A stretch of DNA of 58,633 nucleotides from NCBI GenBank assembly GCA_944358415.1, contig CALVRA010000007.1, positions 1 to 58,633 of the forward strand. Reading direction: 5' to 3'. The translations under genes were made by a program, and so were the position numbers. The notes beneath the pieces are model-generated. The model made no database searches and was not told the DNA's origin. It saw only the letters and a program-made list of their open reading frames with translations. Below, piece after piece: positions 13,331 to 41,738 of this stretch. How positions within the stretch are numbered: the stretch's first letter is position 1; each line of letters opens with the position of its first letter. This stretch comes from an uncultured Bacilli bacterium (GTDB lineage Bacteria > Bacillota_I > Bacilli_A > RF39 > UBA660).

Positions 13331-13346
13331 AATATCCTAACTTTTT
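13321..13346. terminator. Bidirectional terminator
   Basis: AAAAAGTTAG pairs with CTAACTTTTT with a 6-base loop, giving T runs on both strands between two convergent genes. Confidence 0.85.
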
Positions 13347-13555
13347 TTCTTTTCCATTGTAACTTTAATACCTTTTATCCTACACCACTGTAAAAAAGTA
13401 TGTAAATATAAATTTCGTTCACCAGTTTCAATTTTTGTAATAGATGAGTAACTTTTATTAACCGAAATTGCAAATTGTGCTTGTGATTCCTCAGACCATT
13501 CTCTAATTAATAAAGCTACATCTTGTGGCGCCATTTTTGTAATATCTGCTTTCAT
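13337..13555 (-). CDS. XRE-family regulator of surface-protein cassette 1
   Basis: This 72-residue helix-turn-helix protein has AQFAISVNKSYSSITKIETG as its HTH core. The start at 13555 is chosen because AAGGAGG stands just before it; the longer frame would begin inside the divergent promoter. It is transcribed away from the lectin-like gene at 13662. Two copies of a short palindrome (CACTATTAGT) flank the divergent promoter, which suggests that this protein binds there and controls the surface gene and itself. The same arrangement occurs at 36.8-37.4 kb and 40.5-41.7 kb with unrelated operators. Confidence 0.8.
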   Translation of the reverse strand: MKADITKMAPQDVALLIREWSEESQAQFAISVNKSYSSITKIETGERNLYLHTFLQWCRIKGIKVTMEKKKS

Positions 13556-13582
13556 ATAGCCTCCTTTCACCAAAAGTGCTAT

Positions 13583-13647
13583 CACTATTAGTATTGACAT
13601 TTTACCTTTAATAAGATATAATTTGTTTAAAACTACCACTATTAGTG
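13583..13647 (+). promoter_or_regulatory. Consensus promoter flanked by two operator palindromes
   Basis: The promoter is TTGACA (13594-13599), 17 bases, TATAAT (13617-13622). CACTATTAGTA ends right at the -35 (13583-13593). CACTATTAGTG (13637-13647), a perfect hyphenated palindrome, lies downstream of the -10. Both are likely sites for the XRE protein. Confidence 0.75.
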
Positions 13648-13661
13648 AAAGTGAGGAAATT

Positions 13662-14566
13662 ATGAAAAAAATAAAAGAATTTTCAAAAAAATATTTAATA
13701 GGATTTACTTTAGGACTAATAACATCAGGAATAGTAGTAGTGTGTGCGGCAACATATTTTCCATCAAATCAAACAACGTATGATAATAGCGTAAGTGGGC
13801 TTAATGCGACAAATGTCCAAACAGCAATCGATGAACTTTATAATACTTGTTTTCCACCTACATTAGGAGATCAAATATTAGAAAATACTGATTTAGAAAA
13901 AGACTCATACGAATGCCGATATTTCTTTACAGGAGCAACCCCCAACAATTACATAACTTTTAATAACGAAACATGGCGTATAGTCTCAGTCGAATGTGAT
14001 GGAACAATAAAAATAATGAAAGCAAGTAGTATAACCAATGATTACTGGGATACATCAAATTCTAATAACTGGGCAAGCCCGCCACACTAAACACATATTT
14101 AAATGGTACATATTTGAATCAATTGGCTTCTACTGCCAAAAATCAAATTGTATCCAAAGATTGGAGTATAGGGGAAGTAACATGGGATAATAATGATTTA
14201 GCAGATCAAATAAATGACGAAAATAGTGAAAAATGGAATGGAAAGATTGCTTTAGTTACAGTAAGTGAATATATAAGAAGCAATAGTAATAAAAGTAGTT
14301 GTGGAACATTAAGTTTATATAATGATAATTATAGTAGCTGTAGAAATACAACATGGATGTATATAAATGATATATGGTGGACTTTGTCGTCCTATGCCGG
14401 CCATTTTTCCTACGTGTTCGGCGTGCGTTCGAACGGCCTTGTCAGCAACTACGACGTCTTCAACTACAGCAATGCGGTCCGTCCGGTCGTCTATCTAAGC
14501 TCTGATATCCAAATCACTGGTGGAAACGGAAGTTCTAGTAATCCATATATTTTGAGTGAAACTTAA
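13662..14566 (+). pseudogene. Lectin-like surface protein, cassette 1, frameshifted
   Basis: The start has GAGGAAATT in front. The protein has one membrane/signal helix (YLIGFTLGLITSGIVVV), then ATYFPSN, a TNVQTAIDELYN motif and a C-terminal domain with WWTLS and AVRPVVYLSS, like C-type-lectin/DUF6273 folds. The first frame ends at 14090. The homologous reading (ATLNTYLNGTYL) continues in another frame and runs from 14114 as an open frame to 14566. Loss of one base in the C run at 14078-14080 would explain it. It is 50-60% alike the intact gene at 40839-41738 by eye. The end of the gene holds a GC-rich patch (14386-14500). It may be a dead copy, a phase-variable gene or contain a read error. 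Confidence 0.75.
14386..14500 (+). other. GC-rich patch over the predicted ligand loops (candidate DGR variable region)
   Basis: I count 64 G/C in these 115 bases (56%), against 26 in the preceding 105 bases (25%). Codons here end almost only in C, T or G, unlike the rest of the gene. The positions between WWTLSS and AVRP are mostly NNC or NNT codons (for example cat ttt tcc tac, agc aac tac gac). This is what adenine-specific mutagenesis of AAC/AAT codons by a diversity-generating retroelement leaves behind. No reverse transcriptase or template repeat is seen in the window. Confidence 0.55.
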
Positions 14567-40436: not shown

Positions 40437-40468
40437 AAAAACTGACTTTAAATTTGTCAGTCTTTTTG
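40437..40468 (+). terminator. Terminator between rpoE and the convergent regulator
   Basis: ACTGAC pairs with GTCAGT with a 9-base loop; A and T runs on both sides make it usable in both directions. Confidence 0.7.
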
Positions 40469-40723
40469 TTTTGGTGGTTTGTAAACTAATATATCAGAAA
40501 TATCACAATCTAATACATAACACATTCTAGCCAAAATATTCAAATCAGTACGTACAATCTTGTTTTTCGAATATCTAGAAACTAAATCGAAATCAGTCCC
40601 AATAGAATTTGCTAATCTATTATGAGTAATATTTTTTTCTTTAAGTATTTTATCAAGATTTATATAAACTTCCCCATAATCATCCACAGAAGAAAAGACA
40701 CTTTTTATTTTTGCTTTCCGCAT
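40457..40723 (-). CDS. XRE-family regulator of surface cassette 3
   Basis: This 88-residue HTH protein has YINLDKILKEKNITHNRLAN, IGTDFDLVSRYSKNKIV, and RMCYVLDCDISDILVY at the end. The start at 40723 has GGAG eight bases upstream; the longer start at 40768 would sit on the promoter. It is divergent from the intact lectin-like gene at 40839, with an inverted repeat in between (40776-40802). Confidence 0.82.
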   Translation of the reverse strand: MRKAKIKSVFSSVDDYGEVYINLDKILKEKNITHNRLANSIGTDFDLVSRYSKNKIVRTDLNILARMCYVLDCDISDILVYKPPKQKD

Positions 40724-40762
40724 ATTATCAACTCCATTTATTTCATTATAGCCAATATCATG

Positions 40763-40802
40763 TTGCATTATAATACGTTATATGGTATTATGTTATATAA
40801 CG
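40763..40802. promoter_or_regulatory. Divergent promoter and operator of cassette 3
   Basis: TTGCAT (40763-40768), 17 bases, TATTAT (40786-40791) points right; a TATAAT points left. CGTTATAT (40776-40783) and ATATAACG (40795-40802) form a perfect inverted repeat across the rightward -10. Confidence 0.65.
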
Positions 40803-40838: not shown

Positions 40839-41738
40839 ATGAAAAAGAATTTCAAAAACAAATTACTTTATTTTTGCTTGGGAGTATTAGCTTGCAGTGT
40901 AGTAGGAGTAACTGCTGCCACTTACTTTCCATCCAATGATATTACTTATGATAATAAAGAAAGTGGACTTTCTTCAACCAATGTTCAAGGAGCCATCGAT
41001 GAACTTTATAATGAATGTTTTCCTAAACCATCTATTGGAGAAATTATAGAGAATTTAGAAAAGGACGAATATGAATGTAGATATTTTTTTACTGGAACAA
41101 ATCCAAATAATTATGTAACCTTTAATAATGAGACAGCAGGTTGGCGTATAATCTCAGTAGAATGTGATGGAAGAATAAAGATTATAAAAGCAAATAGTAT
41201 TGTTGAATTAGATTGGTTAAATGGGCAGGAAAGTGTAAATAATGAGTGGAATCAGTCAAGACCGAATATATATTTGAATGATAATTATTATAATATCCTA
41301 ACATCAATTGCTAAAAATCAAATTGTAGAGAGTAATTTTAGTATAGGAAAATTATCTGGTAACGAAGATAATATAATGGTACAAGTAGATAAAGAAAACG
41401 GTACTTTATGGAAAGGAAATATTGCTTTACCAACAATAAGCGAATATTTAAGAACAAATATAGATAAAGATAATTGTGGCACATTTAATTTATACAATGA
41501 AAACTATAATAATTGTAAAAGCACATCATGGATGTTTAATGGTGGAAATTGGTGGTCATTATCTGCCTATTCTGACTCAGCGGGACATATATTCGCACTT
41601 AATACTGATGGAACTATCGGTTATGGATATATGGCTGGTTGGAAATTTGGTGTTTATCCCACCTTATATCTCTCATCAAAAATCAAAATCACTGGTGGAA
41701 ATGGAAGTCAGTCAAATCCTTACCAGTTATCACTATAA
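40839..41738 (+). CDS. Lectin-like surface protein, cassette 3, intact
   Basis: This 299-residue protein has one N-terminal membrane/signal helix (LLYFCLGVLACSVVGVTA), then ATYFPSN, SSTNVQGAIDELYNECF and a repeat-free linker. The C-terminal domain has YECRYFFTG, GWRIISVECDG, SEYLRTN, WMFNGGNWWSLSAYS and YPTLYLSSKIKITGG. This matches the paralogues at 13.7 and 37.2 kb and looks like a C-type-lectin/DUF6273 fold shown outside the cell. Unlike the first copy, its loop region is ordinary A/T-rich sequence. It has AAGGAAGGG before the ATG and a terminator at 41756. Confidence 0.75.
   Translation: MKKNFKNKLLYFCLGVLACSVVGVTAATYFPSNDITYDNKESGLSSTNVQGAIDELYNECFPKPSIGEIIENLEKDEYECRYFFTGTNPNNYVTFNNETAGWRIISVECDGRIKIIKANSIVELDWLNGQESVNNEWNQSRPNIYLNDNYYNILTSIAKNQIVESNFSIGKLSGNEDNIMVQVDKENGTLWKGNIALPTISEYLRTNIDKDNCGTFNLYNENYNNCKSTSWMFNGGNWWSLSAYSDSAGHIFALNTDGTIGYGYMAGWKFGVYPTLYLSSKIKITGGNGSQSNPYQLSL

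Follow-up and report, generated by a model that had tools for sequence, protein, structure and literature searches.

The analysed window, i.e., the whole stretch of 58,633 nucleotides, contains two DUF6273 lectin-like genes, one of which carries a GC-rich patch and is the main subject here. The relevant features, in coordinates of the window, are as follows:

13337..13639, minus strand: divergent small HTH-like gene adjoining the patch gene (weak HTH match)
13662..14090, plus strand: 5' portion of the lectin-like DUF6273 gene, from the N-terminal hydrophobic segment to a premature end at a frameshift
14081..14566, plus strand: 3' part of the DUF6273 gene in another frame, containing the patch (DUF6273 domain, E 2.9e-8)
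14384..14485, plus strand: patch of 34 codons resembling a variable region (VR), LSSYAGHFSYVFGVRSNGLVSNYDVFNYSNAVRP (GC and codon statistics; alignment with the template TR1 and VRs)
14480..14503, plus strand: conserved 3' boundary of the VR; CGTCCGGTCGTCTATCTAAGCTCT is the same in the paralogue on contig C11 (pairwise alignment, codon listing)
40457..40768, minus strand: divergent HTH_26 (Cro/C1-type) gene adjoining the second paralogue of the window
40839..41738, plus strand: second, intact DUF6273 paralogue

The GC content of the patch (14386-14500) is 55.7%, vs. 24.8% in the preceding 105 bases and 28.6% in the whole window. The GC maximum of the window is a 115-base stretch starting at 14375 (56.5%), which includes the patch, and the next separate stretch reaches 51.3%. 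The codon pattern is equally distinct. In the 34 codons that start with TTG (14384) and end with CCG, the third base is C in 20 cases, G in 7, T in 7 and A in none; the first A-ending codon after the start of the patch is CTA at 14495. In the rest of the window (16,214 codons), A is the third base in 41.8%, and the naive probability of 34 consecutive codons without a third-position A is ~ 1e-8. The run free of such codons extends over 40 codons in the patch gene, and the longest one in any other large open reading frame (ORF) of the window is 17. The GC content at third positions (GC3) is 0.79 in the patch, compared with a top value of 0.59 among 14,854 other windows of 34 codons. The NNG codons present (TTG, TCG, GTG, GTG, TCG, GCG and CCG) belong mostly to the fixed framework and not to the loops. 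Thus, the GC-rich patch free of A-ending codons is a real feature, far outside chance, and the initial annotation, which had described a GC-rich patch without A-ending codons up to CTA, was accurate on both points.

The DUF6273 domain (PF19789) was found in the 3' part of the patch gene. Relative to the full-length C11 paralogue, one base is missing near 14078, and the gene is split into ORFs 13662-14090 and 14081-14566. The frameshift may indicate a pseudogene or an assembly error; if it is real, this copy would no longer make the full protein, and in this respect the frameshift counts against a current function of the gene. For the intact paralogue at 40839-41738, the AlphaFold model (pLDDT 85) has a C-type-lectin-like fold. 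Its top structural match is the N-terminal region of a Thomasclavelia IgA peptidase (Z 15.7); further matches, modest when taken singly since their Z values are below 8, are the C-terminal domain of Legionella Lcl (Z 6.8), many C-type lectins (Z 5-6) and variable protein 1 of Treponema denticola (TvpA, 2y3c; Z 5.6), which is a target of a diversity-generating retroelement (DGR). The patch corresponds to approximately residues 241-274 of the model, in its C-terminal part. At the sequence level, the A2 profile matched none of the solved structures. The lectin-like character previously ascribed to the gene is consistent with both the DUF6273 domain and the predicted fold of the modelled window paralogue. 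In the C11 paralogue, a clear HTH_3 gene occupies the position equivalent to 13337..13639. Divergent small HTH-type genes lie upstream of several DUF6273 targets (13337-13639 and 40457-40768 in the window, 451-666 of stretch L005 and 1840-2055 of stretch L006), suggesting that each target has its own regulator.

These data raise a key question: does the genome possess machinery capable of writing such a patch? The assembly (1.20 Mb, 40 contigs, 75.8% complete) was examined by searches and through selected stretches, and three reverse transcriptases (RTs) were identified. DGR RTs are marked by the motif [ILV]G...SQ; the RT on contig C2 carries IGNMTSQ and YMDD, and that on contig C4 carries IGNETSQ and YMDD. 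The bAvd domain (PF22296) was detected above the cut-off beside both, and the phrog_3206 Avd was also found at C2. Thus, the whole-genome search for a DGR RT proposed in the initial annotation yielded two, each beside an Avd gene. The C2 Avd/RT pair is preceded by an ORF similar to MutS domain I (MutS_I, PF01624), and a MutS domain I-like protein is a known DGR accessory, MSL (PMC10053308). The C2 RT sits among housekeeping genes on a bacterial contig, and a related RT is present in 33 of the 44 genomes of this Bacilli genus. The third RT (C9, L001:1267-2226) matches a retron Ec107-like model (E 5e-124); with its QGAPTSS motif, it was rejected as part of the DGR system.

Upstream of the C2 Avd and RT lies an AAC-rich repeat, TR1, which is present in three identical copies, including 122-base repeats on C4 and C1 that each adjoin a DUF6273 gene. 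Four VRs on contigs other than that of the window, in paralogous lectin-like genes and at a position homologous to that of the window patch, were compared with the 102-base core of TR1. The VRs on C20 and C39 differ from it by 17 and 18 mismatches, respectively, every one at an adenine; for the C4 VR, 18 of 19 mismatches are at adenines, and for the C1 VR, 20 of 21. Pooled, 73 of 75 mismatches fall at adenines (17-20 adenine and 0-1 other mismatches per VR), and the chance of so many is ≤ 3e-9 for each of the four. A similar pattern occurs in the congener G030, where the VR adjoining the RT departs from the template at 17 sites, every one an adenine. Because the TR1/VR differences are almost confined to adenines in this way, the sequences support past action of the DGR in trans on several of the lectin-like genes of this genome. 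The additional TR1 copies (C4:31756-31877, stretch L118, and C1:53207-53328, stretch L119) combine the 5' flank of the C2 template with the 3' flank of a VR and may represent hybrids rather than working templates. TR1 at C2 is in frame with a short ORF (L011:3639-4301) and occupies its 3' end; by eye, this ORF resembles a truncated IS605-type TnpB.

Another important question is whether TR1 could have written the window patch. The patch, LSSYAGHFSYVFGVRSNGLVSNYDVFNYSNAVRP, shares homology with TR1 and with the four VRs written from it, and its alignment with TR1 is free of gaps: 9 of 17 framework codons are identical, and 16 of the 17 codons at the AAY positions of TR1 are NNY, in agreement with the earlier description of nearly all loop codons as NNC or NNT. 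There are 40 differences, of which 19 are at non-adenines, many of them at third positions. Because of these 19 mismatches, TR1 as it stands did not write the patch, and it was rejected as the direct template. In the two 60-base blocks ahead of the patch, identity to the C20 paralogue amounts to 93 and 85%; it falls to 55 and 55% within the patch and is 77% after it. Identity to C11 is 91 and 85% before the patch and 70 and 70% across it, so that the drop is centred on 14380-14500 in both comparisons. The framework of the patch (..GVRSNG..) resembles that of VRs from the congeners G012 and G030, and in G012 there are eight VRs with a window-like framework that differ mainly at NNY loop codons. 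In the 3' edge region, where a signal for the initiation of mutagenic homing (IMH) would be expected, the TR1-written VRs share GCGGTCCGCCCT, and the window patch has GCGGTCCGTCCG. A second VR family occurs beside the C4 Avd/RT pair (L012:7880-8060) and on C26 (stretch L120), its two members being 83% alike; BLAST revealed no template for the VR beside the C4 RT in the assembly or among the retrieved sequences. This class does not match the patch and was rejected as its donor.

The template of the patch was sought with an adenine-aware 87-base pattern, in which A remains A, C is read as A or C, G as A or G and T as A or T, with ≤ 3 mismatches allowed. In a scripted control on the retrieved sequences, the pattern derived from the C20 VR recovered TR1 with 0 non-adenine mismatches. 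The pattern of the patch matched only the patch itself in the 75.8%-complete assembly and only a poly-A tract (in G026) among the 43 congeneric genomes, while a stricter version with the first six bases fixed revealed no template in a sample of 386 family genomes. A genus-wide search with an inferred AAY template returned the patch itself, the TR1 copies and other templates or VRs, and none of these was a better candidate. The initial annotation had predicted a copy of 100-130 bp differing from the patch only at adenines; none was found in the assembly or the 43 congeners. Its proposal that the template and RT act in trans from outside the window agrees with the presence elsewhere in the genome of the RTs, Avd, TR1 and four TR1-written paralogues, but no template for this particular patch was recovered in these assemblies. 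Such an absence is weak evidence, since one of the eight clean G012 VRs, subjected to the adenine-aware test, likewise has no template in its 81% complete assembly; short repeated sequences probably drop out of metagenome assemblies easily. Given the 75.8% completeness of the assembly, the missing template neither refutes nor confirms the interpretation given in the initial annotation.

The patches of this genome can be ranked by their number of A-ending codons. No such codon is present in the window patch or in the four VRs written from TR1 (GC3 0.74-0.79), the C11 and C4:39k patches have one, and the C30, C1:9k, C3 and C22 patches have three to five. Eight are found in the C36 patch and in that of the second window paralogue, where the decayed patch lies at 41559-41660 (8 of 34 codons, GC3 0.24); this AT-drifted patch has the oldest appearance in the series. 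Decay is seen in at least six other paralogues, and GC3 in the other paralogues ranges from 0.24 to 0.54. The window patch stands at the undecayed end. Read as a time series, as we infer it to be, this ranking indicates either that a template outside the assembly continues to serve the window patch or that the patch became an orphan recently. The undecayed codon pattern is compatible with the earlier suggestion of a recently retrohomed region, although the gene is frameshifted.

Taken as a whole, the comparisons support an interpretation of the patch as an orphan remote variable region of a DGR, with trans-acting machinery supported at the level of the genome. We consider it probable that the patch is a remote VR of a DGR system spread over the chromosome, an estimate that includes the case of a dead remnant discussed below. 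An error-prone RT would have copied a sister template with AAY loop codons and a framework related to but unlike that of TR1; the resulting cDNA would have replaced the patch in trans and thereby randomised the loop residues of a surface protein whose fold is C-type-lectin-like. The sister template would belong to the quarter of the genome missing from the assembly, or its recent loss would have left the VR orphaned. A more far-reaching picture is possible, and we advance it tentatively: the lineage may maintain some 15-17 surface lectin-like genes across the chromosome that several coexisting template families rewrite in trans, with copies going from active to orphan to decayed states in the course of template turnover, the patch being freshly orphaned or still active.

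The probabilities given to these readings and to their rivals overlap and are not exclusive. The DGR origin itself would hold if the template lineage were lost, the gene a frameshifted pseudogene and nothing acting now, a sub-case that we regard as plausible but somewhat doubtful. The frameshift near 14078, the lack of a patch template in the assembly or relatives and the several paralogues at stages of decay are in line with it, and leftover remote targets are documented in T. denticola (PMC4891356). However, the patch shows no third-position decay, unlike those of C30, C3, C22, C36 and the second paralogue of the window; an error of assembly may account for the frameshift, and a template is also missing for VRs of clean appearance both here and in a related assembly. 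Import is unlikely, i.e., gene conversion or horizontal transfer of a VR written in another strain or species. The framework (VRSNG) is indeed nearer to the G012 and G030 VRs than to TR1, and 28 bases at the 3' edge of the patch also occur, without a mismatch, in the RT-adjacent VR of G030, but no donor with matching loops was found, and the flanks at 14260-14380 match the C11 and C20 paralogues of the same genome at 85-93%, so that only a short conversion would fit. Finally, the patch often differs from TR1 at sites other than adenines, and these differences affect all codon positions, as would be expected from ordinary diversification of paralogues through selection on lectin loops or from a locally GC-rich ancestor. 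We regard this explanation as highly improbable in view of the 0 of 34 A-ending codons vs. ~ 42% elsewhere, variable NNY codons like those of VRs of the same genome with adenine-only signatures, and the GC3 of 0.24-0.54 in the other paralogues.

Remote targets, action in trans and VRs without a template are all already known. In T. denticola, dispersed lectin-fold genes on the chromosome share one RT and template, and some remote targets are overly mutated or left from a lost template type (PMC4891356). The system described here resembles the TvpA family of that species in its dispersed remote lectin-fold targets, TvpA matching the predicted fold, but it differs in that the targets are DUF6273 proteins of low-GC uncultured Bacilli and in its accessories (Avd and a MutS domain I-like protein, vs. 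an HRDC-type protein in T. denticola). In Thiohalocapsa PB-PSB1, VRs match a distant template at all non-adenine sites, which implies action in trans, and some VRs have no matching template in the genome (PMC10907252). Both situations appear to recur here, although the targets and taxon are different, and population data were available there compared with a single assembly here. DUF6273 is a reported DGR target domain of gut phages, in tentaclins (PMC10743442) and Faecalibacterium prophages (PMC11792537). The likeness extends to the C-type-lectin-like fold and to the location of the VR, inside DUF6273 or at its C-terminus, but the C2 RT lies among housekeeping genes of a bacterial contig, unlike those phage systems. 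Remote CLec paralogues of cyanobacteria likewise have VRs similar to a DGR elsewhere in the genome (PMC7517822); those proteins are mostly predicted to be cytosolic, whereas here they are short proteins with an N-terminal hydrophobic segment.

Surveys confined to the RT neighbourhood miss remote targets (PMC8144416), and base composition alone can reveal a remote DGR target in a low-GC genome. According to the present data, an uncultured genus of Bacilli harbours a chromosomal DGR system with multiple targets, in which more than one template family and an apparent series of decay can be recognised. Internal stops occur in the DGR-type RTs of several congeners (stretches L077, L079, L100 and others), with one in G030 and six in G012, which suggests that the DGR system may have been gained and have decayed repeatedly in this genus.
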